Source of the DNA: a virus
DNA length: 21,243 nucleotides
IMG/VR virus record: IMGVR_UViG_3300043411_002968
Span: 1 to 21,243 of that record
Reading direction: 5' to 3' (one strand)
The notes below the pieces were generated by a model. The model worked only from the letters and a program-made list of their open reading frames with translations. It was not told the DNA's origin and ran no database searches. The translations under genes were made by a program, and so were the position numbers. This document shows, piece after piece, positions 1 through 20,780 of the stretch; within the stretch, counting starts at the first letter, position 1; every line of letters begins with the position of its first letter.

Positions 1-765
1 AAATATTATGTTTGATAAATCTGTTTCATTCAAATCAAAATAATCAAGAATTCCTTCAACAATTTCTTTTGTAACGTCCCATAAAAAATCAGGGTTTTGA
101 TAAGGCGATTTATCAGCTGTAGTTGAGTCATTACCTACAATTTTTGATAGTAAATTATTATCCAAAGGCATTAATTCTTCCATAATAATTATTGCGTAAT
201 TATTTTCTGGATTTAAAACATCTTTATATGGTGAATTTGAAGGAGAATCATCATCATCATCCCAAAAGTTTCTTTTAACTTTAATTTTATTAAAATCTTC
301 TTGATAGTTAATTTTGTATATCTTTGGCAAATATTTTTTAAGTGCAGGAACAACTGAACTTGAGGCATCTAATATATCTTCCCAATTTTTGACTTCTTTA
401 ATTCCATCTTCATAAAGAATAACTTTGGCCACAGCAGGTTTACCTTGATAAACTCCTCTAAAGACAGTTCCAAATGAACCCTGACCAAGAATAATTGATT
501 TTCCTCCAGCTTCTACTGGGTGAAAGTCTTCTTTTTTTAGTATGTTTGGAAAAGCACCTCTTTCAAAAGGAGGATGTGATTGCATTTTATTGTGAAAATC
601 TTTGCCTCCAACGGGATGTATTTTTTTCAAGTACTCATCTTCTGAAATGGGTTCAGATTCAAAATATTTTTCATCTATCTCTTCAAGATCTTCTATTTCC
701 TGTGCTAATTTTGTATAACCAGAAATTTTCAAAGTATTTGATAATATTTTTAATAAATTATTCAT
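1..765 (-). CDS. Protein-kinase-like protein, third tandem copy (C-terminus beyond window)
   Basis: The reading frame is open from an ATG at 765 to the window edge (255 codons seen), so the catalytic C-terminus is missing here. Residues 1-29 form the helical N-terminal element shared with the two upstream kinases. An acidic linker with SEPISEDEYL (37-46) follows. Then comes a kinase N-lobe: glycine-rich loop GQGSFG (94-99), VAK with the predicted ATP-binding Lys114, and a hinge-like segment IIIMEELMPL before the helical part. The ATG overlaps the stop of the upstream kinase by 8 bases (ATGAATAA), and an AGGA sits 10 bases upstream inside that gene. It is probably co-translated with the other two copies. 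Kinase fold is supported by alignment with its paralogues; substrate and activity are unknown. Confidence 0.8.
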   Translation of the reverse strand, partial: MNNLLKILSNTLKISGYTKLAQEIEDLEEIDEKYFESEPISEDEYLKKIHPVGGKDFHNKMQSHPPFERGAFPNILKKEDFHPVEAGGKSIILGQGSFGTVFRGVYQGKPAVAKVILYEDGIKEVKNWEDILDASSSVVPALKKYLPKIYKINYQEDFNKIKVKRNFWDDDDDSPSNSPYKDVLNPENNYAIIIMEELMPLDNNLLSKIVGNDSTTADKSPYQNPDFLWDVTKEIVEGILDYFDLNETDLSNIIF

Positions 766-1897
766 TTCCAAAAAGTCCTGCATCTATAAACTTTATTGTA
801 CCATCGGCGCCCATCATTAAATTATCAACGTGTAAATCATTCCATTTAACTCCGGCACTTCCCAACATTAGTAAGGCTTCGTAAAGTTCTTTTGTTTCTG
901 AACGATGCTCCCAAACTGGAGAATAATATTCGTAATCATGAAAATCCTTTGGCGTCGTAATACCATAATATCCTCTTGGAACACCTGGAACTTTACCAAT
1001 TGAATTATTTAAAATTGCTTTTATAATAGGAAAAACCTTTTCTTTATATTTTTCTCTGAATGGATACTTTTGTAATAAAAAGTTCGATATATTTTCAGCC
1101 ATAATTGTTGACGAAGGAAAAGATTTGTCATCTAATTTTTGAGATGACAGCAATTTAAATATTTCATTTGTATTAAGTTGAAAATTTCGCATATCCATCC
1201 TAAAATATGGATTTTTTGAAATTCCATCAACAATTAATGATGAGACTGTATATAAGTAATCATCATCTTTAAATAAATCTTTAATCATTTTTGATTTATC
1301 TATCATAGGATTATCATCCATGTTTAAATAAATATCTTTTGGTAACTTAAATAATTTTTCCATAATGATTATTTCATAATTTATTCCGAAAACATATTGA
1401 TTTTTTTCTTTTTTCAATACGCCTTTATTTAAGTGATAAATAACAGGAAAATGTTTTTTTAAATTTTCTGGAAAACTTTGTGTTATTTGCAATATTTTTT
1501 GCCAGTTTTCAACTTCTCCATTTGAGTTTAAAATAATTTTTATGGCAGCTAATTTACCTTTATAAACTCCTTGGAAGACAGAACCATAAGAACCTCGACC
1601 TAACAAAGGTTTCTCTTCACCTGAAGAAACTATTTTAAAGCCTTCTTGCTCGGCAATTTTATTATAATCATCAGCTAAATCCGAATCCGTCATATAAGAT
1701 TTTTGAGATACTTGATTTAAATATTCCTCTTCAGATATAGGTTCCGAGCCAAACTCCAAAGCGTCTTCTTCTTGAAGTTTATCGTGTTCTATTTCCCAAG
1801 GAAGAACATCTTCTTCCAGATTTTCAACTTCATTAGCCTCTTTGTGAAGATTATGAGTATATAAATAATTATATAATTTTTTTAAAAAATTATTCAA
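758..1897 (-). CDS. Protein-kinase-like protein, second tandem copy
   Basis: A 379-aa eukaryotic-like/atypical protein kinase fold. Residues 1-29 are the shared N-terminal helical element and SEPISEEEYL is at 51-60. The glycine loop GRGSYG is at 100-105 and the predicted ATP-binding Lys at 120 (AAIK). The catalytic segment WNDLHVDN (352-359) gives Asp354 and Asn359, and IDAG gives the metal-binding Asp372. The usual lysine two residues after the catalytic Asp is His, as in APH-like and atypical kinases. The protein ends only 7 residues after that Asp, so no activation loop or helices follow it. I chose the TTG at 1897 over the ATG at 1939: it gives MNNFLKK, matching the third copy, and overlaps the previous stop by 8 bases (TTGAATAA) exactly as the next junction does. 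The ATG would add 14 residues. Confidence 0.82.
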   Translation of the reverse strand: MNNFLKKLYNYLYTHNLHKEANEVENLEEDVLPWEIEHDKLQEEDALEFGSEPISEEEYLNQVSQKSYMTDSDLADDYNKIAEQEGFKIVSSGEEKPLLGRGSYGSVFQGVYKGKLAAIKIILNSNGEVENWQKILQITQSFPENLKKHFPVIYHLNKGVLKKEKNQYVFGINYEIIIMEKLFKLPKDIYLNMDDNPMIDKSKMIKDLFKDDDYLYTVSSLIVDGISKNPYFRMDMRNFQLNTNEIFKLLSSQKLDDKSFPSSTIMAENISNFLLQKYPFREKYKEKVFPIIKAILNNSIGKVPGVPRGYYGITTPKDFHDYEYYSPVWEHRSETKELYEALLMLGSAGVKWNDLHVDNLMMGADGTIKFIDAGLFGNE

Positions 1898-2984
1898 TTT
1901 TATAAAGTCCCATATCAATAATTTTGATATTACCATCATTTCCCATCATTAAATTATTTTCCTTAACATCGGCCCAAGATATGCCTAGTGAGGACATTTC
2001 TTCTAAAAATGATAACAATTGTTTTGTTTCCGGTAAATTACCAAAAAGTGGATTGTATTCTGTTGAATTAGGATCGTTATAATTTTTTTGTCCAGGAAAC
2101 CCTTCTTTAACTACGAACACTTTAATTAGACTTGTATTAAGTACTCTTTTAACTTTAATTAATTCACTACTCATGTCATATTCATTAACTACATAATTTG
2201 CAATATTATTAATGATATCATTATGACTATAAGAATTTATGTCACGCATTGAATACAAAACCTTAAATATTTCTTCTGGTGTAAGATCTTCAAAATAAAA
2301 CCATGAATCTAAATCTCTAGAAATCATTTTTGCCAAATCATATAAAAAATCTTCATCTTTAAGAGCAAGATTAAAGGATTCTTCCGATTTGTAATTGCCG
2401 ATTATCTCTCCAAGATGTTTATTTAATGGTTTTAATTCTTCCATCACTATGATTTCATATTGATAATGTTTGTCCACACCATCATTAGTAGGCGAAATAG
2501 AATCAACTTTAGATAAAAAAACTTGAGGGATATGCTTTCTTAAATTAGGAGATATTTTATCTTTAATAGACATTAACTTATGCCATTTTGGAGCCTCAAA
2601 ACCAAAATCATTAATAAATTTTTCAACAAAATCTTCAACCAAAACTATTTTTGCAACAACAGGCTGTCCTTTATAAATTCCTCGATAAACACGCCCAAAA
2701 GATCCTCTACCTATATATGAAGATTTACCTCCAGCCGAGACAGGCTTGAATCCTTCTTTAACAAAGATTTTACTAATAATATCCATACTAACATCTTCAT
2801 CATGCAAATCCGGATGAACCACTTGCTCTAAGTATTCATCTTCTGATATTGATTCAGGGCCAAATTCCTCAACAGCTTCTTGATGCCAAGACTCAGCATA
2901 TTCCTCTAAGTCTTTAATTTCTTGGGCAATTTTATGATAGTTGTTTTGAGTTAACCATTTTTTTAATTTGAAAAGAAATTTCAT
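1890..2984 (-). CDS. Protein-kinase-like protein, first tandem copy
   Basis: A 364-aa kinase-fold protein with the most canonical active site of the three. Residues 1-28 are the N-terminal helical element (LAxx-like IAQEIKDLEE at 19-28) and ESISEDEYLEQ is at 44-54. The glycine loop is GRGSFG (92-97) and the predicted ATP-binding Lys is 112 (VVAK). The catalytic segment WADVKENN (337-344) keeps Asp339, Lys341 and Asn344, equivalent to HRDxKxxN without the His-Arg. IIDMG gives Asp357 in place of DFG. The chain stops at 364, 7 residues past that Asp. The ATG at 2984 shares its A with the stop of the SOD-like gene (TAATG), and AGGA lies 8 bases upstream. Family membership is fairly sure. The partner or substrate is unknown. 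Confidence 0.85.
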   Translation of the reverse strand: MKFLFKLKKWLTQNNYHKIAQEIKDLEEYAESWHQEAVEEFGPESISEDEYLEQVVHPDLHDEDVSMDIISKIFVKEGFKPVSAGGKSSYIGRGSFGRVYRGIYKGQPVVAKIVLVEDFVEKFINDFGFEAPKWHKLMSIKDKISPNLRKHIPQVFLSKVDSISPTNDGVDKHYQYEIIVMEELKPLNKHLGEIIGNYKSEESFNLALKDEDFLYDLAKMISRDLDSWFYFEDLTPEEIFKVLYSMRDINSYSHNDIINNIANYVVNEYDMSSELIKVKRVLNTSLIKVFVVKEGFPGQKNYNDPNSTEYNPLFGNLPETKQLLSFLEEMSSLGISWADVKENNLMMGNDGNIKIIDMGLYKIE

Positions 2985-3691
2985 TATTTTATCCTAATAC
3001 TTTTAATTCTTTTTTTAACTAGTCTCCAATCAATTCTATTTAGAAACCATTTAACATATTCTTCTTTATTCAAGCCAAAATCTGAAAAATATGCATGCTC
3101 CCACATATCTAAAGCTAAAACTGGTATGCTTGAAATTAAGATGTTTTGGTCATGTGAATCGATAACATTAAAAATTAACTTTTTATTATATACGCAATAA
3201 CTAAAAACTACCCAACCATTTCTAGGGATTAAAGAAAGTCTATATAATTCTTGAGAAAAAGAATTATAATCTCCATACAATTCTTTTAAAAACAAAGACA
3301 TTTGTTCATCTTTTTCAATAGAATATGGATTATTATTTACAACATCAGAAAAGTACATTTCATGCAAAATTATTGCATTATGATTATAAGCATAAGAACT
3401 TGCTATATCTCGTAGCTTCCCAAAGTTAGGACTATCTTTTTCATTTTTAGACTTCATTACTTTGGCACGCTCTAAATCTAAATTTTCGATCGCTTTTTTG
3501 TACCCATTTAATAATGTTATGTGATCATCTACAGTAGACTCTTTAAGTCCACATTTATGTAAATCTTTGTTTTTTTGACTTGAGTTTTTAACATAATTAT
3601 CAACAAAGTCATCTAATATAGATGCTTCTTTTTTAAGACCTTTTTCATCTAAAGTTTCTGCAATATCTAGTAAATCATTTAAATAATTCAT
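2984..3691 (-). CDS. Fe/Mn superoxide dismutase-like protein with N-terminal tag
   Basis: A 235-aa protein whose residues about 45-225 follow the Fe/Mn SOD fold. The C-terminal signature LDMWEHAYF (194-202) gives two metal ligands, Asp195 and His199, followed by the usual W/R-rich tail. NHNAIILHEMYF (103-114) supplies His110. STVDDH (52-57) supplies His57 as the likely first ligand, by alignment with the ETIEYH of bacterial FeSOD. All four ligands are therefore plausibly present. SOD turns superoxide into H2O2 and O2. Residues 1-30 (DIAETLDEKGLKKEA core) lie outside the SOD domain and match the N-terminal element of the downstream kinases. The gene is coupled to the first kinase by TAATG and lies 2 bases after the upstream small gene. 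The ribosome site is weak. It could be a structural SOD relative with altered activity. Confidence 0.85.
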   Translation of the reverse strand: MNYLNDLLDIAETLDEKGLKKEASILDDFVDNYVKNSSQKNKDLHKCGLKESTVDDHITLLNGYKKAIENLDLERAKVMKSKNEKDSPNFGKLRDIASSYAYNHNAIILHEMYFSDVVNNNPYSIEKDEQMSLFLKELYGDYNSFSQELYRLSLIPRNGWVVFSYCVYNKKLIFNVIDSHDQNILISSIPVLALDMWEHAYFSDFGLNKEEYVKWFLNRIDWRLVKKRIKSIRIK

Positions 3692-3693
3692 TA

Positions 3694-4005
3694 TTATTTG
3701 CGCCCCATTCTTTTACTAAGAACATTGTGAATTTTTTTAGCAGTACGTAAATTACTATTATAAAAATAAAGTTTTTTCAAAAAATCTGGCAAATTATCTT
3801 TTCCAACCTTATTCATTGAATTTTGAATTTCTTTAATTTTATTTTCTGTTTTTTTTATAAAATTAATTAATTCAACCTCAAGATTTTTTGCCATACTTTT
3901 ATTTTTATTAATCAATATTTTTTTAAAATCTACATCAATCTTTCTAAAAAAAGTTTTTGCCTCGAACCAATCATTTGGGTAAAAATTATTTTGATAATTG
4001 GTCAT
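3694..4005 (-). CDS. Hypothetical helical protein
   Basis: I do not recognise this 103-aa protein. It is lysine- and asparagine-rich and predicted mostly helical from about residue 15 on, with no cysteines, membrane segment or catalytic motif. I chose the ATG at 4005, where GAGG is 5 bases upstream, rather than a TTG at 4020 that lacks a ribosome site. It is the first gene of the minus-strand run SOD, kinase, kinase, kinase, with only 2 bases separating it from the SOD-like gene, so it is probably transcribed with them. The 67 bases between it and the plus-strand gene at 4073 must hold divergent promoters, but I see no convincing consensus boxes there. Confidence 0.6.
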   Translation of the reverse strand: MTNYQNNFYPNDWFEAKTFFRKIDVDFKKILINKNKSMAKNLEVELINFIKKTENKIKEIQNSMNKVGKDNLPDFLKKLYFYNSNLRTAKKIHNVLSKRMGRK

Positions 4006-4072
4006 TTTAACCTCATTCAATAGTCTTTTATTACTTGATTATTTATTAATAGTTTAAAAATATAGGAAAGCT

Positions 4073-4564
4073 ATGAAGAAACGAAACGCACTTGATTTTT
4101 CAGGTAATACTTACACATGGTCAGATTTGATTTTAGAAATCAAAAAATATGAACAACTAGGTTGTAATATTTATATCGGCAGTGACTCACAGGTATGGGA
4201 TGGAATAATTTCTTTAGTCACAGCTATATGTCCACATAAGCCTGGCTTCAGTGGCAAAGTTTTTTATTTTAAAGAAGTTTATAGCCTAAAATTTTATCCA
4301 AATTTAAAGTCAAGAATGTTTCTTGAGGCGTATAGCAGTTTGGAAGTTGCGCAAGAAATTCAAGAATTTAGTAATAAAAAAATTGAAGTTCATCTCGATA
4401 TTGGGAACACTAATCGTTCCAAAACATCAGCTTATGAAAAAGAACTTCAATCTATGTTGCTGGCACAAGGATTTAAATGTGCTATCAAGCCAAATAGTTT
4501 TGCAAGTTATGCAGCAGATAAAGCTTTAAGAGGTTTTTTTAAGCCCGAAGTTGTGTCATTTTAA
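4073..4564 (+). CDS. YkuK-like RNase H-fold protein (DUF458 family)
   Basis: A 163-aa protein matching the YkuK/DUF458 family, predicted RNase H-like nucleases. Motifs in order: YIGSDSQV (34-41), typical first acidic strand with Asp38; Glu85 in the middle helix; HLDIGNTNRSKTS (107-119) with Asp109; and KPNSFASYAADK (139-150) with Asp149. These acidic residues would coordinate metal. Length is normal for the family. AGGA lies 5 bases before the ATG. It is one of only two plus-strand genes here. Its 3' end overlaps the convergent fibre gene by 26 bases, with no room for a terminator between them. The substrate has not been established for the family as far as I know. Confidence 0.85.
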   Translation: MKKRNALDFSGNTYTWSDLILEIKKYEQLGCNIYIGSDSQVWDGIISLVTAICPHKPGFSGKVFYFKEVYSLKFYPNLKSRMFLEAYSSLEVAQEIQEFSNKKIEVHLDIGNTNRSKTSAYEKELQSMLLAQGFKCAIKPNSFASYAADKALRGFFKPEVVSF

Positions 4565-6002
4565 TTCTAGCATTACAACGACCAGCCCCAGAAGATGCTC
4601 CTCCGAAAATTTCTGTAAAATCCACACTAAGATAAAAGCCTCCACCTACGCCAACAATCGTCCATGTCAGATAATCATTGGCTGCAACCCCTGAAGAACC
4701 TGTACTACCAACGAAGACTCTGTCAGACCCTGTACCTACTATTTGATATTGGTTATATCCTATATCACCTGCCGCTGCAGCCAGCGTCTGTCTGCCAATT
4801 ATAGAGATGGCCGTACCACCACCAAAAAATGACATGTCACTTAACAAGATATTCCATTCAATAGTAATTAAAGTTGAACTATTTGTTGGTACATATAAAA
4901 TATTATCTGTAGATGGAGCGTTACCATCAAGCGTTAACAAACAACTTGTATCACTAATCGCGTAGCTACCAAATACAACTAAATCATTTAATTGTGTTTG
5001 ACCAAGCCTTCCTGATGAGTCACCTGGAAAGGTGCCTCCTGATATAGAATGCTGATTTAGCATTATAGTTTGACCATCTGCGCCAACAATGGTTGAATAA
5101 TCAGTAGTTACAACATTGCCAGTTCCTGCTATGGCTGCACAAGCGGTAGCACTTCCTGAAATCACATTACTATGGCCACCGACAATAATTCCGCAATTAC
5201 CACTTGAAGTTATTGAATTGGTTGTCCCGCCCAAAATGGAATTATAATTACTTGTCGTAGTAATTTCATTTGAAATTCCTCCCAGAATTGCATTACAATC
5301 TCCATTCCCAGTGATACTATTTCCCTGTCCGCTACAAACACTTGAATAATTTGCACTAACGATTGAGTTATTGAGTCCCGATGTAATACAAGAATAGATT
5401 GCGGTTGATGAAATTGCATTACTACCACCTCCACAGATACTTGAGTTTACAGAATTAACCTCAATCGCATTACTTTGCCCTACAACAAAAGTATAATTTC
5501 CATTAGCCTGTGTATTTGTTCCAAACGCTGCTGAACCTAACCCCCTAGTATCCCATTGAGTAGAATTAGCCGTGCCTGCCCGAAATGCCCCAGTACTTTT
5601 TTCGAAAAGCATTCTACTATCATGTGTGGCGTCACCAGCATCACTTAATGTGCTACTTCCAAATAAGAAGCTATCGCTTGCCAAAGTTCCAGGGGCATTA
5701 CTTGTAACATTCAAAGCCGTGGACCAGACTGAGTCAAAAGTAAAGCTTGTTAGCTTATCTGGAGTAATAGAATTATCTAGTATATCACTTCCATCTAATC
5801 TGCCTGTTACATGCTCTCCTAAATCTATCTTTTGAGCATGGCCATCTTCTCCCCTGGAACCATCGTGAACATGCCCTCCGACCAATGGATTACTAGGATC
5901 TAAAGCATCACCCTCAGGATCTCCATACAAACCACCATATAATGTGTTGATAAAATCCTCTGTTAAAATTGTAATTCCTGATTTAAATCTAGTTAATGAC
6001 AT
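4539..6002 (-). CDS. Fibre protein with YadA-head-like beta-roll repeats
   Basis: A 487-aa virion fibre or adhesin candidate. The N-terminus (1-90) contains GHVHDGSRGEDGHAQKIDL (43-61) and HVTGRLDGSDI, a pattern common at the start of phage fibre-type proteins, where it attaches to the particle. Residues 161-310 hold about eight 16-17-residue repeats of the type SNxIxxxxNxSxIxGG, as in the left-handed beta-roll of YadA/Hep_Hag heads, which trimerise. Residues about 335-487 form a beta-rich C-terminal domain without recognised relatives. Several repeats carry a cysteine at a similar place. The start is the ATG at 6002, 2 bases after the tmk stop, with GAGGA 10 bases upstream. It could be a tail fibre or a head fibre; the sequence alone does not decide. 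Confidence 0.8.
   Translation of the reverse strand: MSLTRFKSGITILTEDFINTLYGGLYGDPEGDALDPSNPLVGGHVHDGSRGEDGHAQKIDLGEHVTGRLDGSDILDNSITPDKLTSFTFDSVWSTALNVTSNAPGTLASDSFLFGSSTLSDAGDATHDSRMLFEKSTGAFRAGTANSTQWDTRGLGSAAFGTNTQANGNYTFVVGQSNAIEVNSVNSSICGGGSNAISSTAIYSCITSGLNNSIVSANYSSVCSGQGNSITGNGDCNAILGGISNEITTTSNYNSILGGTTNSITSSGNCGIIVGGHSNVISGSATACAAIAGTGNVVTTDYSTIVGADGQTIMLNQHSISGGTFPGDSSGRLGQTQLNDLVVFGSYAISDTSCLLTLDGNAPSTDNILYVPTNSSTLITIEWNILLSDMSFFGGGTAISIIGRQTLAAAAGDIGYNQYQIVGTGSDRVFVGSTGSSGVAANDYLTWTIVGVGGGFYLSVDFTEIFGGASSGAGRCNARIKMTQLRA
5073..5522 (-). repeat. YadA-head-like repeat block inside the fibre gene
   Basis: This encodes residues 161-310 of the fibre protein, about eight units of 16-17 residues. 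The unit pattern is [S/N/T]N-x-I followed by a variable turn, then a small residue, I or L, and GG. Examples are SNAIEVNSVNSSICGGG and TNSITSSGNCGIIVGG. Cysteines fall once per unit in six units (C190, C205, C223, C236, C270, C288). Confidence 0.75.
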
Positions 6003-6004
6003 GC

Positions 6005-6616
6005 TTAAATATTCCTCATCCTTAATTGCATTTTTTTAATAGTTTCTATTACTGTGTTTAAATTAGAATCAATGGAATCATTACCATTGAGTTTTAAAAA
6101 ATTCCACCCTTTGTCCTCAAGATAATCATTTGTCTTTCTATATTTATCCAAAGCACTTGTTAAAAAGTCTTTCTTTTCAAAGCAATCTGGCGCACTACCT
6201 TTTCGCCCCGATATACGTTTAAGAGATTTTGTTACATCTCCATCAATATAAATTGATAAATCCGGAATTAAAAATTCAGAGGCAATATGTAGATTATAAG
6301 ACTTATCCATATCTATATAATTAGATTGATAAACCATTGTTGATTGTAAATACCTATCTGATATAACAATTTTATTATTGTTTAAATTAGGCTTGATAAA
6401 ATCTTTTATGTGAAAATCTCTATCTGTCATAAACAAATGATGTAATGATGAAGTATAAGGATTTTCTTGTTTAATAAGTTTTCTTATTAAGAGAGAAAAT
6501 TCACCTTGATAAGGCTCTTGAGTTACAACAAGATCCGAAATTTTTTGTGAATCCAATATGGCTTTAACAAGGGTTGTTTTTCCAGAGCCATCAATACCTT
6601 CAACAACAATAAACAT
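6005..6616 (-). CDS. tmk: Thymidylate kinase (dTMP kinase)
   Basis: A 203-aa cytoplasmic nucleotide kinase that phosphorylates dTMP to dTDP for dTTP supply. The P-loop is EGIDGSGKT (6-14), TQEP is at 32-35 (TREP in most homologues), the DRY motif with SDRYLQSTMVYQ is at 86-97, and a lid-like RISGRKGSAPDCFE is at 134-147. Length is typical of bacterial and phage enzymes. The ATG at 6616 shares its A with the stop of the Nudix gene (TAATG), with AGGA 8 bases upstream. Together with dUTPase and ribonucleotide reductase elsewhere in the window it completes a route from ribonucleotides to dTTP. Confidence 0.93.
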   Translation of the reverse strand: MFIVVEGIDGSGKTTLVKAILDSQKISDLVVTQEPYQGEFSLLIRKLIKQENPYTSSLHHLFMTDRDFHIKDFIKPNLNNNKIVISDRYLQSTMVYQSNYIDMDKSYNLHIASEFLIPDLSIYIDGDVTKSLKRISGRKGSAPDCFEKKDFLTSALDKYRKTNDYLEDKGWNFLKLNGNDSIDSNLNTVIETIKKMQLRMRNI

Positions 6617-7026
6617 TATTTTTTCCTATTTAAATAAAGCATTATATTTTTCAATATATCGGAATGAAGTGAGCCGCCCCCAACAAAGGGGTATTCAGGT
6701 ATTTCTAATATCGAAACCCATTTAAAATTCATGCTTTCTTTATTAATCTTTACCGTGCCAGAATAACTATTTGTTATAAACGTGTTAACAACAATATGTT
6801 CTAAAATTAGCGATCCAAGATAATCTATTTTATCTTTCTCAATTATTAACCCAGTTTCTTCTTTAACTTCTCTTATTGCTGCATCCATAGGATCTTCATC
6901 TTCTTCAACTTTACCACCTGGAAAATTCCAGGTCCCTGATCCCGATGACTCTGGCCCTCTTTGCAAGATTAAAATATCTTGTTTGTCTAATATTATTGTT
7001 GTCGCAACATTTAATTTATTTTTCAT
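6616..7026 (-). CDS. Nudix (MutT-like) hydrolase
   Basis: A 136-aa single-domain Nudix hydrolase. A complete Nudix box Gx5Ex7REUxEExGU spans 38-60: Gly38, Glu44, then REVKEETGL (52-60), with Glu56 and Glu57 as expected metal ligands. LQRGPESSGSGTWNFPGGK precedes the box, as in MutT and NudG/NudI types. It is likely to cleave a (d)NTP or other nucleoside diphosphate-linked compound, possibly cleaning up damaged nucleotides; the exact substrate cannot be read from sequence. It is translationally coupled to tmk by TAATG, which favours a nucleotide-pool role. Confidence 0.9.
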   Translation of the reverse strand: MKNKLNVATTIILDKQDILILQRGPESSGSGTWNFPGGKVEEDEDPMDAAIREVKEETGLIIEKDKIDYLGSLILEHIVVNTFITNSYSGTVKINKESMNFKWVSILEIPEYPFVGGGSLHSDILKNIMLYLNRKK

Positions 7027-7459: not shown

Positions 7460-9715
7460 TTAAACTTTTTCTGTATACTTACACCCGTTTCTGTATTCCG
7501 AACAAGCCTTAAACTTTCCAAATTTACCATCTAACAATAGGATTTCTCCGGAAGAACATTTGGGGCATTTTTTTCCTGTAGACTCTCCCTTAGGAGAGTT
7601 CTTTTTTCCACCTTTTGTAAACTTCTTTTCTATTATCGCTCCATTTTCATCTAATGATCTGGAAAACTTACAAGACGGATACTTAGAGCAACCCACCCAA
7701 CTACCACCACCAAATTTTGATGGCCTTTTAACCAGACTACCCTTTTTGCAAGAAGGACAAGATTCTTCTAAAACTTCCTGTGCAGCTTTAACTTTAATAT
7801 TACCATCTTTATCCAAACTTCCTGTCCATTTACAATTAGGATGCGCCTTGCATGCCAAAAATTTTCCAAATTTAGATTTACGTTCTATAACCATTGAACC
7901 ACACTCAGGACATGGCAAACTAGTTTCCACTTGATTTTCTGTATAAGTTCCATCCTCATTAACACTTAATATATAGCCACATTTTGGATGGTTTTCACAT
8001 CCCAAAAAAACTCCATGTTCTGAAATTTTCTTAATCATCTTAGAACCATTATTGCATAATTTGCAGTCTATCTCTTGTTTGAAAAGAACTTTGTTTTTAT
8101 CCTTTTGAACATTTTGAATTGTTGATGTTAAATCGTCATAAAATTTATTTAAGACTGGAATGAATTCAATCTTTCCTAATGCAATATCATCAACTTCCTT
8201 CTCCATCACTGCTGTAAAATCTGGACTGGTAAGTTTTGGAAAATAATTTTCTAAATACTCACAGACCATAGCACCTATCTCAGTACCCTTCAGAGATTTT
8301 CCTTCGCGAACAATATATTTATGATCCACCAATCTTTCAATTGTTGCTGCATAAGTTGCGGGTCTACCTATGCCTTCCTTTTCCATTTTATCTACAAATG
8401 TTGGTTCAGTATATCTAGCTGGAGGTTTAGTGAAATGTTGTTCTGTAACAAATTTTTTAGATATGATTTCTTGACCAACCGTCATTGCTGGTAGACTTAC
8501 ATCTTTTGTGCTGGTCCCATATACCTTTAAAAATCCATCGAAAACAAGTACAGATCCTGTAGTTCTAAATTCATGAATATGAACCCCTTTATGCTCTAAT
8601 TTTACGGAAACTTGATCAAATTTTGCTGATGCCATTTGAGACGCCATAAATTTTGATTTTATTAAATCTAATAATTTATTTTCATCCGAACTTAAGTTCA
8701 TTGGCGTAGGTTCATATGTTGGTCTAATGGCTTCGTGAGCATCTTGTGCAGCATCCTTGGTATAAAGAATTGGACTTGGAGACAAGTAAGATTTTCCAAA
8801 TTGATTTTCAATCATGTCTCTAAGCTCTTCAATCTTTTTTGGCTCAGTTCTAGTGCTATCAGTTCTATGATAAGTTATACATCCCGCCGTAAATAAATTT
8901 TGGGCTGCATCCATTACTCTTTTTGAGCTCCAACCAAATTTTGTTCCTGCTTCCTTTTGAAGGCTAGACGTTATAAACGGTGGACCTGGATCTCTATTTC
9001 TAGATTTTTGCTGATAATCTGTAACAATCAATTTAGACTTACAATCTTTTAAAATCTCGTCTACTTGACCTTTAGATGTAGGAACAATTTTAAGTCCATC
9101 TGAGCCATAAAATTCTGCATCGAAATCTAAATTTGTTTTAGACACTATTGTCCAATATTCTTCCTCTTTAAATTTTTTAATATCTCTTTCACGATCAATA
9201 ATATATTTTAGGGCTGCCGATTGAACACGACCAGCAGAAGTGTTCCGAAGACCTTTAGACCACATTAAAGGGCTAATTTTGAAACCAACAACCCTATCCG
9301 TCATTCTCCGAACTTGCTGAGCTTTATTTAAGTTTTCATTAAAACCTGTTGGATTTTTCATTTCTTTTTCAATAGAGTCTTTTGTTAATTCTTTAAAGAC
9401 AACTCTATGAAATGTCTTACCTTTTTTAGGTAAGACTTCTAAAAGAGAAAACCCTATATTCTCACCCTCTCTATCTCCATCTGTTGCTATGTATATATCT
9501 TTGTGTTTCTTTACCTCTTCAACAAGCTTTTTAACCACATCATTTTTATCAAAATTAACAACATATTTAGGCGTCCAAGTTTCGACATCAATACCCATAC
9601 CTTTTTTATCTAAATCCATAATATGACCAACGCTAGCCATTACTACATAATTAGTGCCTAATATCTTGTTGATTTTACTAATTTTATTTGGAGATTCAAC
9701 TATAACTAGACTCAT
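7460..9715 (-). CDS. topA: Type IA DNA topoisomerase I
   Basis: A 751-aa full-length topoisomerase I that relaxes negatively supercoiled DNA through a 5'-phosphotyrosine link. The Toprim domain has LVIVESPNK (3-11) with Glu7 and ATDGDREGE (77-85) with Asp79/Asp81; most homologues have TDPDREGE. The catalytic loop ITYHRTDSTR (280-289) gives active-site Tyr282. EGIGRPATYAATIERL (447-462) closes the core. The C-terminus carries four tetracysteine zinc modules at about 551-580, 602-629, 653-683 and 717-746, like cellular TopA. I chose the ATG at 9715, giving MSLVIVES and 5 bases from GGAGG. A TTG at 9730 and an ATG at 9718 are also in frame. Full-size TopA is uncommon in phages. Confidence 0.95.
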   Translation of the reverse strand: MSLVIVESPNKISKINKILGTNYVVMASVGHIMDLDKKGMGIDVETWTPKYVVNFDKNDVVKKLVEEVKKHKDIYIATDGDREGENIGFSLLEVLPKKGKTFHRVVFKELTKDSIEKEMKNPTGFNENLNKAQQVRRMTDRVVGFKISPLMWSKGLRNTSAGRVQSAALKYIIDRERDIKKFKEEEYWTIVSKTNLDFDAEFYGSDGLKIVPTSKGQVDEILKDCKSKLIVTDYQQKSRNRDPGPPFITSSLQKEAGTKFGWSSKRVMDAAQNLFTAGCITYHRTDSTRTEPKKIEELRDMIENQFGKSYLSPSPILYTKDAAQDAHEAIRPTYEPTPMNLSSDENKLLDLIKSKFMASQMASAKFDQVSVKLEHKGVHIHEFRTTGSVLVFDGFLKVYGTSTKDVSLPAMTVGQEIISKKFVTEQHFTKPPARYTEPTFVDKMEKEGIGRPATYAATIERLVDHKYIVREGKSLKGTEIGAMVCEYLENYFPKLTSPDFTAVMEKEVDDIALGKIEFIPVLNKFYDDLTSTIQNVQKDKNKVLFKQEIDCKLCNNGSKMIKKISEHGVFLGCENHPKCGYILSVNEDGTYTENQVETSLPCPECGSMVIERKSKFGKFLACKAHPNCKWTGSLDKDGNIKVKAAQEVLEESCPSCKKGSLVKRPSKFGGGSWVGCSKYPSCKFSRSLDENGAIIEKKFTKGGKKNSPKGESTGKKCPKCSSGEILLLDGKFGKFKACSEYRNGCKYTEKV

Positions 9716-9720
9716 CATTT

Positions 9721-9725
9721 CCTCC
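9721..9725 (-). promoter_or_regulatory. Ribosome binding site of topA
   Basis: GGAGG on the minus strand lies 5 bases before the ATG at 9715 and 2 bases before the ATG at 9718. It falls inside the reading frame if the TTG at 9730 were used, which argues for the ATG start. Confidence 0.7.
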
Positions 9726-9791
9726 GACAAATAAACTTTGCTAAATACATGGTACTATGCAAATTTTAAACGTTCTAATCATTATTAATAT

Positions 9792-10010
9792 TTATGAAAG
9801 ACTATCTTGGAGTGATTTCATAACTTCTTCAAGCATCTTCCTTTCTTCCGCAGGAATTAATAATTCTATTTCCTCGACTTCAGAATTATTAATATTAGAT
9901 AATTCAGATATTATTTCAGAATCAATTTTATCAGCCAAATCTAATTGGCCACGTCTATCTAAAAGATCTGATACTTTAATTAACTTTTCTATAAGACTTT
10001 TTTTTCTCAC
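9792..10010 (-). CDS. Small protein carrying the shared N-terminal helical element
   Basis: A 72-aa acidic protein that starts with GTG at 10010, with GGGGGTGA just upstream, and lies 15 bases after the dUTPase stop. Residues 5-35 (core LIKVSDLLDRRGQLDLADKI) match the N-terminal element of the SOD-like protein and, more loosely, the three kinase-like proteins. The remaining 35 residues are a Glu/Ser/Leu-rich helix with no recognised domain. It may be little more than the tag plus a short tail. I cannot assign a function; it is interesting because the tag stands almost alone. Confidence 0.65.
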   Translation of the reverse strand: MRKKSLIEKLIKVSDLLDRRGQLDLADKIDSEIISELSNINNSEVEEIELLIPAEERKMLEEVMKSLQDSLS

Positions 10011-10025
10011 TATGTCACCCCCAAT

Positions 10026-10550
10026 TTATTTTGAATCCGATGAACCAAACCCACCACTGCCACGTATAGTCTCATCTAATGATTCAACCAAAACAAAATT
10101 AGTATCTAATCTCTTTCTAAGTATTAATTGAAACAAAATTGGTTTCTTATCTAAAACCAATTGAGCGACTATACTCATTGTGCTAGGTTTCGAACCAAAC
10201 ATTTTAACAATTCCATTGGGAAATGAAACTGATTTCAAATCCTGACCCATGCCAGAATGCGTTATTCTTACAGGAATAAGAATTTCTCCTGTATAATGCT
10301 GATCAATTATACCTACAGAGTTGGCCAACATTAGCGGCAATCCACTTATTGATGATCTTGGGTAAACCTCAAAATAATAACCGTCTGGTGGTTGAATAGA
10401 TAGTCCAGTTTTAAAAAATATTACATCACCTTCTATTTTGCTTACACCAATAGATTTGATATCATATCCAGAATCTGAATCATGCGCTTTTTTTGGTAAC
10501 TCTGCTTTAGAATCTAAAAGCCTTACCTTTGTTGATAATGTTTTTTGCAT
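10026..10550 (-). CDS. dut: dUTPase (dUTP diphosphatase)
   Basis: A 174-aa homotrimeric-type dUTPase, converting dUTP to dUMP and PPi to keep uracil out of DNA and supply dTMP synthesis. Five motifs are visible: I DSDSGYD (24-30), II PRSSIS (64-69), III NSVGIIDQHYTGEI (77-90) with the catalytic Asp83, IV VAQLVL (128-133), and the glycine-rich motif V RGSGGFGSS (163-171) at the C-terminus. It is slightly longer than the usual 145-155 aa because of an insertion around 97-122 between motifs III and IV. The ATG at 10550 has GAGGA 7 bases upstream, formed by the last codons of the metallopeptidase gene. Confidence 0.94.
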   Translation of the reverse strand: MQKTLSTKVRLLDSKAELPKKAHDSDSGYDIKSIGVSKIEGDVIFFKTGLSIQPPDGYYFEVYPRSSISGLPLMLANSVGIIDQHYTGEILIPVRITHSGMGQDLKSVSFPNGIVKMFGSKPSTMSIVAQLVLDKKPILFQLILRKRLDTNFVLVESLDETIRGSGGFGSSDSK

Positions 10551-11023: not shown

Positions 11024-12967
11024 TTACCAAGTTTCGATGATTATGAATCCATTTCCACCCGTTCCTCCTGCCCCACCAGCTATTCCAGCTCCGCCACCAC
11101 CACCACCACACCCCAATGCGCCATCGGCTCCAGCTCCGCCAGTTCCAGATAAACTAGAGCCTCCTCCTGTTCCTCCATAGCCAAGCAAATAATATGTTGG
11201 GTCTGATAAAACTGTATTGATCGGATCTCCTCCATAATAATTTCCCGCAGTTCCAGGATTACCTGCTGTGCCACCTGGTATAGCTGGAAATAATGTTCCT
11301 AAGGCTTTATATCCCTGTCCAGAGGATTGAGCTACAGTAGTTTTTCCTCCACCCGTACCACCAGGCGTTGTTGACGCAGCTGTTGAGGCTCCACTTCCAA
11401 AAGGCCCTATATCAGCCGGAACACCAGATGTTGGAGTGGATGCGCTCGTTCCTGCTAAAGCTTTAAGAGATATTGAAAATTTTGAAGGCAACATAGATGA
11501 GAATGTTGCAACGGCTGCACCTGCACCAGACCCTAATCCACCAGATCCGCCTGATGTAGCATAACAATATATTTCAGCATATAACGTTCCGACTGTACCA
11601 ATAACTCCACCCGTATAATTGGTTGATGCTTGCACTAATGTACAATCCTGAGAAGAGTGTAAAGACACCCAGCAATTTAAAATTTCTTGCAACTGACTTC
11701 TTCGATATACTACGGATGTTATACCTCCGGAACCACCACCTCTACCTCCATTTCGGTTTGCTGTGTTATTTCCAGTAGTTCCAGCGTCACCATCACCACC
11801 TGAACCCACACAAGTTATCCTAACAAATTGAGCATCTGCTGGCAAAGTAACTGTAGATGCTCCAGTTGTTGTAATAGTTTGCAAACTATATCCAGCCAAA
11901 TGACTCGGGGCAATTACATCACTACCTAAGGTTAGGACTGTACCACCTAATGCTTTTGTTACATCACCCGTAAATGCGGCAACATTTACTGTACCAGTTC
12001 CTAACGTTAAATCTGCTCCTACCGTGATTTCTTCAACATTTCCTGATGAAGCAGTCCATCTACCCAAAACCCTATTTGTTGATATATTCTGTATTTTATC
12101 AAAAGTAACTGCATCATTAATAACCGAAGATGTAGTTACTGCATCATTTGCAATATGTGATGATGTTATAGCTCCAGACCCAACGACTAATGCACCAGCA
12201 GAAACATCGAGTCCTGAGCCATAAGATATATGGGAAGATATTTCTGTTGGGCCAGATCCGGATTGCTGCCAACTTACATTAAGAGCGCTTGTTGGTGCAG
12301 CTGGTGTTGTATTGTTAAAATTAGCATCCGTTATTGATGTACTGTTTACTGACAAACTACTTCCCGAAGAGGAGCTGCCATAACTTGGTAATACACTAAT
12401 AAATTCTAGATCTGTTGTTCCAATAACATATGGTCCTGGCGTACTTAACCAAAACTTGGTTACTTGATTTAGTGTACCTTCAATAACAAAAATCTCTGTC
12501 CCTGGAATTAATAATGACTCATCGTTAGCATCACTTGCTCTTGCCCATGAACCATCAGAACCTGTTCCTTCGTTTGTTACAACATAAATTCCATTTTCTG
12601 CCTGATTATTTTGCTGATAAACCAATACTCTATCATCCATACTTAGAGTTATATCGTCAACAATTAATGGCGCCCCAGAGGATATATTTGATATATTTTG
12701 GGTTGTTGCTACTCTGGCCGGATTCTTATATCCAAGTGTTGGCCCTGTTGTTAATAAGCTTAAAGTTTCTTCTAAAGCGTCAAGCCTTTCTCTTACGGTC
12801 TCAAAATTAATACTACTCGGATCTACACCCAGTTCTTTTTCAATATTAATTATTGCACTTCTTAGACGATTAACTGTTATTGCATCAACTGGTGTTACAT
12901 TATCTACAACCAAAGGTATTTGCGCATATCCATCGATTGCAACTGGATATATACTATAATCCGCCAT
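11024..12967 (-). CDS. Tail fibre/adhesin with glycine-rich C-terminus
   Basis: A 647-aa fibre-type virion protein. Residues 20-72 (VNRLRSAIINIEKELG, then RLDALEETL) form a helical N-terminal module seen in many phage fibre and baseplate-attached proteins. Residues about 80-193 are a recognised tail-fibre domain: LSMDDRVLVYQQNNQAENGI (108-127), WARASDAND (141-149), then an FVIEGT strand. The middle has repeats such as GAITSSHIANDAVTTSSVI. Residues about 385-415 and 520-647 are very rich in glycine and end in NGFIIIETW, recalling polyglycine-helix receptor-binding adhesins. The ATG at 12967 has AAGGG 6 bases upstream. It is likely a host-recognition fibre; which tail part it joins is not shown. 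Confidence 0.85.
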   Translation of the reverse strand: MADYSIYPVAIDGYAQIPLVVDNVTPVDAITVNRLRSAIINIEKELGVDPSSINFETVRERLDALEETLSLLTTGPTLGYKNPARVATTQNISNISSGAPLIVDDITLSMDDRVLVYQQNNQAENGIYVVTNEGTGSDGSWARASDANDESLLIPGTEIFVIEGTLNQVTKFWLSTPGPYVIGTTDLEFISVLPSYGSSSSGSSLSVNSTSITDANFNNTTPAAPTSALNVSWQQSGSGPTEISSHISYGSGLDVSAGALVVGSGAITSSHIANDAVTTSSVINDAVTFDKIQNISTNRVLGRWTASSGNVEEITVGADLTLGTGTVNVAAFTGDVTKALGGTVLTLGSDVIAPSHLAGYSLQTITTTGASTVTLPADAQFVRITCVGSGGDGDAGTTGNNTANRNGGRGGGSGGITSVVYRRSQLQEILNCWVSLHSSQDCTLVQASTNYTGGVIGTVGTLYAEIYCYATSGGSGGLGSGAGAAVATFSSMLPSKFSISLKALAGTSASTPTSGVPADIGPFGSGASTAASTTPGGTGGGKTTVAQSSGQGYKALGTLFPAIPGGTAGNPGTAGNYYGGDPINTVLSDPTYYLLGYGGTGGGSSLSGTGGAGADGALGCGGGGGGAGIAGGAGGTGGNGFIIIETW

Positions 12968-13198: not shown

Positions 13199-13987
13199 AT
13201 GAGAGATACCTTTGCAGAAATATTTTACTTCGTAACATTTTTATTTTTAATATCAATTATATGTTTTGCTGATAATAATAAAATGACAACATCTAAAGAA
13301 AATTATATATTACAAACTTCGATCGGTAGTTACACAAATTTAAAAAATAATAAAGATAGCCAAATATTTATTGATTCCGTTTTAAAATTAGACTACATAG
13401 ATGAAATGGATTCTGTATCTAGTGCCACAGGTTTCAGCGTCATCTATAAAGGAGACGATGATATTAGTTATATATTAACTAACGAACACTTTTGTGAAAA
13501 GAATATTTCCGGCGACAAAGGGACTTTTTATTATGAACTACCTAACGTTGAAATTTCGACAACGTCTAGGATATTCGTTGATTCCTTAAAGGTTGTTGCT
13601 TCAAAAAAAGCACAAGATTTATGTTTATTGTCAATGAATGGTTACATTAAACCTGTTAAACTTGCTCCTGATGGTTATGAAATATCTAGAATGGAGCCCA
13701 TTATAATTGTTGGAAGTCCCCATGAACAATTTCCTGTTGTTAGAGAGACTTTTATAACTAATACAGTTTCAATAAAAGAAGTTTTTAGTTGGATGAGTCT
13801 TAACGCTCCAGCTTTATTTATTTCAGATATTGTTTTGCCTGGAGAAAGTGGTAGCCCAATCTACAATAAAAAGGGTGATGTCATTGGCATAGTTGATGCT
13901 ACAATGTCAAATGGATCTATTGTGTTTGGAGGGGTAGGTATATCTTATGTTGATATAAAAAGTTTTTTAAAAGAAACTAGACTTTAA
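13199..13987 (+). CDS. Secreted trypsin-like serine protease
   Basis: A 262-aa chymotrypsin-fold serine protease. Residues about 7-24 are strongly hydrophobic and end FADNN, a signal peptide or membrane anchor, so it should be exported from the host cytoplasm or sit in the envelope. Catalytic triad: His97 in YILTNEHFC (91-99; TAAHC in trypsin), Asp140 in AQDLCLL, and Ser217 in LPGESGSPIYNKKGDVIGIV. There is no PDZ domain. AAGGAG lies 5 bases before the ATG. It stands alone on the plus strand, divergent from the fibre pair, and its 3' end overlaps the convergent gene by 11 bases. Possible roles are envelope attack, processing of fibre or envelope proteins, or lysis support; none is shown. Confidence 0.87.
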   Translation: MRDTFAEIFYFVTFLFLISIICFADNNKMTTSKENYILQTSIGSYTNLKNNKDSQIFIDSVLKLDYIDEMDSVSSATGFSVIYKGDDDISYILTNEHFCEKNISGDKGTFYYELPNVEISTTSRIFVDSLKVVASKKAQDLCLLSMNGYIKPVKLAPDGYEISRMEPIIIVGSPHEQFPVVRETFITNTVSIKEVFSWMSLNAPALFISDIVLPGESGSPIYNKKGDVIGIVDATMSNGSIVFGGVGISYVDIKSFLKETRL

Positions 13988-18987: not shown

Positions 18988-20780
18988 TAGCCTTGACAGG
19001 CTACACAATCGTCTCCTTCTTTACTTACATAGTCGGCCAAAGGTTTTCTTTCTACCTTATATGAAACCTTATCTGCTGTTACACCAGCATTAGTTCTTAA
19101 ATAATATAAACCTTTTAGTTTTTCCTTCCAAGCCTTCAAGTGTACTTGGTTGACATAACTACGACTTGCGCCTGCTGGGAAAAATAAATTTACACTTTGA
19201 CCTTGACAAACAAATTTTTGCCTATCTGCTGCGTGAGCAACAACCCAATTCTGATCAATTTCAAAGGCGGTTTTGAATACATCCTTATCTTCATCAGACA
19301 TAAAATCCAAATGTTGTACGGATCCCATATTAGTGATAATTGATGGCCAAACTTTTTCTAACCATTCATCCTTATTTTCAACAGAAGGAGCATATTTATT
19401 AATCAGTAATTGTTCTAAATACTTATTCTTAACAAAGAAACTTCCCGCTCTAGTTCTATGGACATAGGCATTACTTTTCCATGGTTCAATACTTGGCGAT
19501 GCTGCAAGTATTATTCCACTGTTAGCGTTAGGAGCAATTGCAAGCAAATGAGCATTCCTTTTTCCTGAGCCAATTCCATCTAAATATTCTCCTCGTTCTT
19601 GAGCCAACAATTCTGTTTCCATCTCTGCCTGCTCTTTTATATGGCTAAATATTTGAAGATTAATAACTTTAGCTAAACTAGAATCCCATGGTATCATATT
19701 TTTTTGAAGATATGAATGAAAACCCATCGCTCCTATACCAATACTTCTTTCTCTTGCCGCTGAGAATTTCGCTTTAATAAGAACATCAGGAGCGTTGTCA
19801 ATAAAAAATTGCAAAACATTATCTAAAAATCTAACTAAATCTCTAACAATCGAGGTTTCCTTCCATTCATTAAATGTTTCCAAATTCAATGAACTCAGAC
19901 AACAAACAGCTGTTCGTTCCGAAGATGTTGGTAATTCTATTTCTTGACAAAGATTTGAATTATTTATTTTTAAACCCAATTTTTTAAGTGGATCTGGCAA
20001 ACACCTATTAGCCTCATCAATAAAATGCATGTAAGGCTCACCAGTCCTAAATCTAATTTCCAAAATTCTTTGCCATAAATCTCTAGCTTTGGTTGTGCCT
20101 CTAATAGTTTTATCATTAGGATCTATAAAATTCCAATCCTCATCCTTGGAAACAGCTTCCATAAATTCATCGGTAATATTTATTGCATTATGAAGATTAA
20201 AACATTTACGATTAGGATCTCCTCCGGTTGGTAATCTTATATTTAAGAATTCTTCTAAATCGGGATGACTAATGTCAAGATATGCGGCATATGATGCTCT
20301 ACGTGTAGTGCCCTGCCTATATGCAGTAACATCAGCATCAATAGTTTTTAAAAATGGTATTGGACCTGGTGCCACATTACTTACACTTCTTATATTTGAC
20401 CAACCCGCTCCAATACCACCACCTTTTACTGATAACCATCTTATCTCTTCTGTATGAGCAATCAAGCTTTCTAGTGTATCATCTACCGACAATAGGTAGC
20501 AGCTAATTGGCAAAGCCTTTGTTTTTTGTCCTACTTGTGGTGCATTAGACAACACTGGGCTTGCATACATAAACCAGCCCTTAGATGCATAATCATATAT
20601 TCTCTGAGCTAGAGAAATATCTCCTGCACAATAAGCTAATGCGGCTCTAGCAAAAGATTCCTGAGGGCTTACCTCATCTTTTTGCTGATAATATTTACCA
20701 AGTAAATCTAGAGCAAAGTGATCTAACCCTTTATCTCGATCTAAGTCTATGGTAATTCCGTGATAATCCCTTAATTGCAT
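18987..20780 (-). CDS. nrdA: Ribonucleotide reductase large subunit, class Ia, without ATP-cone
   Basis: A 597-aa R1 subunit reducing ribonucleoside diphosphates to deoxy forms with NrdB. Active-site landmarks: Cys94 in ALPISCYLL, NLCQEI (276-281; Asn276, Cys278, Glu280), Cys293/294 in AVCCLSSLNL (second redox Cys), Tyr559-Tyr560 in LYYLRT (radical path), and CVAC at 592-595 as the C-terminal redox pair. IAPNANSGIILAASPSIEPW (414-433) is the conserved phosphate-binding region. It is short: about 150 residues fewer than E. coli NrdA, and the N-terminal ATP-cone that mediates dATP inhibition is absent. The ATG at 20780 is 4 bases after GGAGG; a GTG at 20837 would add 19 unlikely residues. Confidence 0.95.
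   Translation of the reverse strand: MQLRDYHGITIDLDRDKGLDHFALDLLGKYYQQKDEVSPQESFARAALAYCAGDISLAQRIYDYASKGWFMYASPVLSNAPQVGQKTKALPISCYLLSVDDTLESLIAHTEEIRWLSVKGGGIGAGWSNIRSVSNVAPGPIPFLKTIDADVTAYRQGTTRRASYAAYLDISHPDLEEFLNIRLPTGGDPNRKCFNLHNAINITDEFMEAVSKDEDWNFIDPNDKTIRGTTKARDLWQRILEIRFRTGEPYMHFIDEANRCLPDPLKKLGLKINNSNLCQEIELPTSSERTAVCCLSSLNLETFNEWKETSIVRDLVRFLDNVLQFFIDNAPDVLIKAKFSAARERSIGIGAMGFHSYLQKNMIPWDSSLAKVINLQIFSHIKEQAEMETELLAQERGEYLDGIGSGKRNAHLLAIAPNANSGIILAASPSIEPWKSNAYVHRTRAGSFFVKNKYLEQLLINKYAPSVENKDEWLEKVWPSIITNMGSVQHLDFMSDEDKDVFKTAFEIDQNWVVAHAADRQKFVCQGQSVNLFFPAGASRSYVNQVHLKAWKEKLKGLYYLRTNAGVTADKVSYKVERKPLADYVSKEGDDCVACQG

Follow-up and report, generated by a model that had tools for sequence, protein, structure and literature searches.

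A shared N-terminal hairpin on unrelated proteins of large phages as a candidate prohead-targeting leader

Five proteins encoded on a fragment of an uncultured giant phage, a superoxide dismutase (SOD)-like protein, three kinase-like proteins and a small protein of 72 residues, share an N-terminal helix-turn-helix of ~30 residues. From sequence comparisons with related phages, we consider it likely, with a probability of roughly two in three, that in this group of large phages the element is a prohead-targeting leader resembling the T4 capsid targeting sequence (CTS) in role and unrelated to it in sequence, which in many of its carriers would be removed at the motif [LIMF]xKxA. The stretch of DNA analysed, hereafter the window, comprises 21,243 nt (21 kb; IMG/VR record IMGVR_UViG_3300043411_002968, positions 1 to 21,243). 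It contains neither a head module nor a head protease, and the mechanism proposed below is therefore taken from the relatives of the phage.

The element in the window

An HMM was built from the elements of the relatives alone, without any window sequence. In the window it picks exactly the five proteins for which the initial annotation had claimed a common N-terminal element, and for which it had given coordinates and sequences correctly: the SOD-like protein (E 1.3e-7), kinase-like proteins 3 (4.6e-7) and 2 (2.8e-6), the 72-residue protein (1.2e-3) and kinase-like protein 1 (3.7e-3). The best window protein beyond these five has an E-value of 0.97; the profile search yielded no sixth carrier in the window and further ones in related phages. 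Two subtypes can be distinguished, 'LDxxGxxxxADxID' on the SOD-like and 72-residue proteins and 'LxxxLxxxNxxKxAxEhxxLEE' on the kinases, which align to one another in a profile-profile comparison (hhalign probability 84%, E 7.3e-6). When the model of the kinase type was run on 1,765 proteins from eight genomes, restricted to their first 70 residues, 16 matches reached 12 bits or more, about half of them seeds of the model; 876 internal segments and the reversed N-termini gave 0 matches each.

The SOD-like protein (235 aa, 2984..3691, minus strand) belongs to the Fe/Mn type, with a Pfam match to Sod_Fe_C (3.9e-17), a phmmer match to PDB 1coj over residues 62-230 (1.3e-17) and a structural match to SODs in Foldseek (7.7e-9). 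The metal ligands H, H, D, H are present: H110, D195 and H199 align with solved SODs, while the first ligand, H57, was located by inspection of homologs. Its element comprises residues 1-33 (3593..3691, minus strand) and, in agreement with the initial annotation, lies outside the SOD fold; resemblance to solved SOD structures sets in at about residue 53 to 62. In AlphaFold models, whose confidence is modest (mean pLDDT 66), the element forms helices H2-16 and H20-40 ahead of the SOD fold and helices H2-13 and H17-40 in kinase 3, where they are followed by a low-confidence linker and then the kinase domain, which places the element before that domain as had been claimed. No firm fold match could be made with the kinase model, which is too weak.

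The three kinases, all on the minus strand, are tandem paralogs, with kinase 1 being 38-40% identical to kinases 2 and 3 in the alignment. Kinase 3 (364 aa) is encoded at 1890..2984 with its element at 2901..2984, found by profile match and in the AlphaFold model. For kinase 2 (open reading frame 758..1939), the upstream sequence indicates that the true start is very likely TTG 1897, overlapping the stop of kinase 3, and kinase 1 (1..783), which is truncated by the window edge, probably starts at ATG 765. With these starts, the elements of kinase 2 (1811..1897) and kinase 1 (679..765), both identified by profile match, come to lie at the extreme N-terminus of each protein. Pfam Pkinase was matched on two of the three window kinases (6.3e-9 for kinase 3 and 2.1e-6 for kinase 2), and the window kinases carry a glycine loop GRGSFG, the lysine in VAK, a catalytic WADVKENN and a DFG-like DMG. 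The proteins at 758-1939 and 1890-2984 stop right after the DFG-like motif; their N-lobe and catalytic loop are separated by a long stretch, and the usual activation segment and the end of the C-lobe are missing.

The 72-residue protein (9792..10010, minus strand) consists mostly of the element (9906..9998, minus strand), detected with E 8.9e-7 by a subtype-a HMM without window sequences, and an acidic C-terminal stretch. Similar small tagged proteins are encoded in the relatives G012 (19191-19445) and G006 (128030-128296).

Elsewhere in the window, a gene for a trypsin-like serine protease on the opposite strand (13199-13984) is conserved in five relatives. Between 16197 and 19008, a GIY-YIG-like and a repeat-rich endonuclease-like open reading frame flank nrdB, the latter lying between nrdB and nrdA; judged by eye, both are probably homing endonucleases.

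Carriers and head modules in related phages

Larger contigs of the same group, sharing gene order with the window, were reached via NrdB and PhoH searches: G001 (80 kb), G002 (67 kb), G003 (135 kb), G006 (133 kb), G007 (395 kb), G012 (332 kb) and G014 (206 kb). The matches of a further contig, G004 (236 kb), are in common with those of G007. At E <= 1, the element profiles were positive for these seven large relatives and for hardly any other record searched. Among 22 further PhoH-matched viruses, subtype a was found in none (E <= 1) and subtype b gave one match (E 0.046), and both subtypes were absent at E <= 1 from T4, Bacillus phage G, Tunturi_5 and Rctr197k. Most of the contigs reached through NrdB at 80% identity proved unrelated, and only the syntenic ones gave element matches. 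A profile of the three kinases retrieved no viral relatives, and a search of viral contigs with the SOD alone was likewise negative.

In these phages the element precedes a range of unrelated proteins. It is carried by SODs in the window, G007, G012 and the contig L220, by kinases in the window and G007, by a HAD_SAK phosphatase in G001, by LysM proteins in G002, G007 and G012, by a cell-wall hydrolase in G003 and, as assigned by eye, by a RelE-like protein in G014 and a peptidoglycan-binding-type protein in G012; small orphan proteins are also among the carriers. Since the SODs of G001 and G002 do not have the hairpin that is present on other SODs, the element is modular. These two hairpin-less SODs (G001 11339-11911 and G002 2198-3073) carry LLKKASE and LFIKASS, respectively, near the C-terminal end of the SOD domain; these sequences may represent the candidate site discussed below in a C-terminal position.

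The same element is also found at the C-terminus of, or inside, head-module proteins, near the genes for terminase, portal, head maturation protease and major capsid protein. With PHROGs, terminase and portal were identified in G012, and a head maturation protease (3140-6268, match to phrog_18299) and the major head protein in G006; homologs of the protease are encoded in G012 (166014-169508) and G014, and homologs of several head-module proteins in G003, G012 and G014. A candidate for the prohead protease gene that the initial annotation had proposed to look for is encoded in the relatives; the 21 kb window has none. The T4-type protease PF03420 was not found in these genomes in a Pfam model search run without a positive control. 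The element-bearing proteins of the head modules include an acidic, scaffold-like protein beside the protease (G006 6281-6871), a protein near the portal (G006 30-524), a protein of G014 (191247-191636) and several others in the same genome, as well as two proteins with a weak form of the element (G006 8176-10356 and G012 160593-163193).

The motif behind the hairpin

The initial annotation had linked the LEE at which the element ends in the kinases to the [LI]xE cleavage rule of the T4 prohead protease. The LEE end is present in the three window kinases, which are paralogous, and only they show it consistently; at the leader ends of the relatives, [LI]xE occurs in 6 of 28 tags against a background of 15% (p 0.24), so that this rule finds no support. 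A different motif stands there instead. [LIMF]xKxA follows immediately after 13 of the relatives' 28 tags, compared with 1.9% expected (p 1.6e-15), and the wider form [LIMF]xKx[AS] after 17 of 28, compared with 3.6% expected, counts that carry some selection, since several tags had initially been chosen by eye, at a stage when the motif had not yet come to attention. In the remainder of the tagged proteins, an excess of the motif that raw counts had suggested is not significant (z 1.2). The LysM domains of G002 and G012 start directly behind the site.

Within the window, the SOD has a weak form of the candidate processing site, YVKNS (residues 33-37; 3581..3595, minus strand), which fits [LIVMFY]xKx[AS] and at whose position SOD homologs have ITKEA, MRKTA and LRKHA. 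It is the only site form in the window; the kinases, with LEE instead, and the 72-residue protein have no K site. Removal of the tag is therefore uncertain for the proteins of the window.

The motif is also a property of the head proteins. In the pooled head modules of G003, G006, G012 and G014, [LIVMF]xKxA was observed 113 times compared with 39 expected (z 13), while the other proteins of these genomes reached z 2.2. With the elements masked, LxKxA was found 48 times in the head modules compared with 10 expected and IxKxA 22 times compared with 7, and the enrichment became weak or nil when K was replaced by R, E, D, Q or N. At the last motif position A is strongly preferred, with L and I also up and S slightly (elements masked), and serine is favoured after KxA. 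As a possible cause of hxKxA, we considered helical periodicity and rejected it: no other central residue shows a comparable enrichment, and A is preferred. The motif occurs in the first 70 residues of 40% of the head-module proteins compared with 8.4% of the others (p 1.8e-9), and a scan of the non-head proteins for a motif near the N-terminus revealed two more hairpin leaders that the models had missed (G012 44115-44771 and 52160-56314).

An unsupervised test searched for aXb residue pairs enriched in head proteins and not elsewhere. KxA was the top pair in G006 and in G012, each taken alone; it was not the top pair in G003 or G014 alone, and the phages Tunturi_5 and Rctr197k did not show the motif in this test. 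As a positive control, the test applied to T4 puts IxE first, the known motif of the T4 prohead protease. [LIMF]xKxA has the form that a prohead-protease site would be expected to take.

Among cultured phages, the closest capsid relative found is Bacillus phage G, with a major head protein 49% identical. Its head region also contains an excess of [LIMF]xKxA (19 compared with 6.2 expected, z 4.9), and in the phage G sequence (L213, 1-25 kb) the motif often lies near the N-terminus, as in gp9, gp13, gp14 and gp20. In contrast to the phages described here, the motif of phage G is not accompanied by a hairpin that the profiles can detect, and its major head protein is without the N-terminal extension of the relatives. 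MIKQAL as a maturation site of the capsid protein is doubtful, as phage G retains that region though without the extension.

Proposed mechanism, alternative readings and known systems

The initial annotation had suggested a packaging or sorting tag. The unrelated carriers, the element in scaffold-like head proteins, the head protease of the relatives and the head-specific motif behind the tags support this suggestion well at the level of sequence comparison, while the LEE rule attached to it is not supported. In the mechanism that we propose, the hairpin leader would dock otherwise unrelated proteins into the prohead core, probably by association with core or scaffold proteins bearing the same hairpin. 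The head maturation protease would then remove the leader in many carriers at the [LIMF]xKxA right behind the hairpin, with the candidate scissile bond after K or after A, and the cargo would be released from the head along with the DNA to act in the newly infected host. Presence of the tagged proteins in the virion, their cleavage and their ejection are in this respect predictions from sequence. The LysM/lysozyme-type carriers could be endolysins, for which packaging is not required. The odds appear about even that this amounts to a general head-loading system, in which one hairpin is shared by the scaffold and interchangeable enzymes (SOD, kinases, phosphatase, cell-wall hydrolases, RelE-like protein) and the cargo is released by a protease of the previously undescribed specificity [LIMF]xKxA, common to Bacillus phage G.

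An alternative is that the hairpin serves many proteins of these phages generally in dimerisation or oligomerisation, as a small LisH-like domain with no role in head targeting. Like LisH and single TPR-type hairpins, it is built from a pair of short helices joined by a Gly/Asn turn, with an L...A...L spacing, and it is also found on lysozyme-type proteins and at C-termini. No element, however, reaches the Pfam cut-off for LisH, the sole match being to LisH_TPL in one sequence, over 10 residues, with 15 bits (cut-off 30.7) and E 0.02. The element further differs from LisH and TPR hairpins in having no significant Pfam match, in being followed by a processing-type motif and in its restriction, within the records searched, to a single group of phages. 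A dimerisation domain leaves both the head-specific [LIMF]xKxA after the hairpin and the presence of the element in head modules unexplained, which makes this reading unlikely. Moreover, dimerisation and targeting are compatible, as a homotypic hairpin could itself be the docking mode of the tag.

The element might also direct its cargo elsewhere in the infected cell, to a compartment or complex such as a phage nucleus, the membrane or a replication factory. Any sorting system could make use of a short element at the N-termini of diverse enzymes, and the phages are all uncultured, but the element within head-module proteins and the head-specific motif after it point to the head, and we regard another destination as very unlikely. 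Least probable of all is shared ancestry without a common function, by which the N-terminus would have been copied among neighbouring genes through duplication and recombination: the window kinases are indeed tandem paralogs and the tagged genes of the window, G001, G002 and G012 group near SOD, but the elements sit on unrelated folds, are spread over up to 395 kb and are kept at low identity across divergent phages, which argues for selection on the element.

The T4 CTS and its function, and the delivery of T4 cargo with the DNA, have been described (PMC9026906). As in the packaging of T4 IPI-III by the CTS and of Alt, an N-terminal leader precedes unrelated proteins here and is followed by a prohead-protease-type motif. 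The T4 CTS, however, has ~10 residues (MKTYQEFIAE) and is cut at [LI]xE, whereas the hairpin has ~30 residues and is followed by [LIMF]xKxA. The tags do not have a sequence of the MKTYQEFIAEA type; the hairpin consensus differs, and neither element profile matches T4. Giant phages of the SPN3US/phiKZ type have N-terminal propeptides on internal head (ejection) proteins, and the SPN3US protease cleaves at AxE with serine favoured at P1' (PMC10052503), a serine preference also seen here after KxA. Most SPN3US propeptides are long (111-254 aa) and each is specific to its own protein, in contrast to the one short shared module described here with its different motif. In the literature searched, we found no published description of this tag.

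Leaders are also present on Fe/Mn SODs of other phages (loci L221-L298), where sequences such as MKNFAHFVESKDHLVLE stand ahead of the SOD domain. These resemble the T4 leader MKTYQEFIAEA, seen in IPII and IPIII. A loose T4-CTS-like pattern was found in 38 of 65 distinct SOD N-termini compared with 19 of 423 other proteins (p 5e-25, a value that is overstated, as related sequences are not independent). At those SOD loci, some HAD-type nucleotidases start with leaders of this kind. That one cargo bears different leaders across lineages fits packaging, and SOD may be a general head cargo among phages.

If the hairpin is a head-targeting leader, the proteins that enter the host together with the DNA, many orphans included, would become readable from the genomes of uncultured giant phages. 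From the motif, the head protease of Bacillus phage G, which is in culture, would be expected to cleave with this specificity, and SODs of phages may commonly be head cargo. The hairpin would then provide, next to the T4 CTS, an independent second leader by which proteins could be loaded into phage heads.
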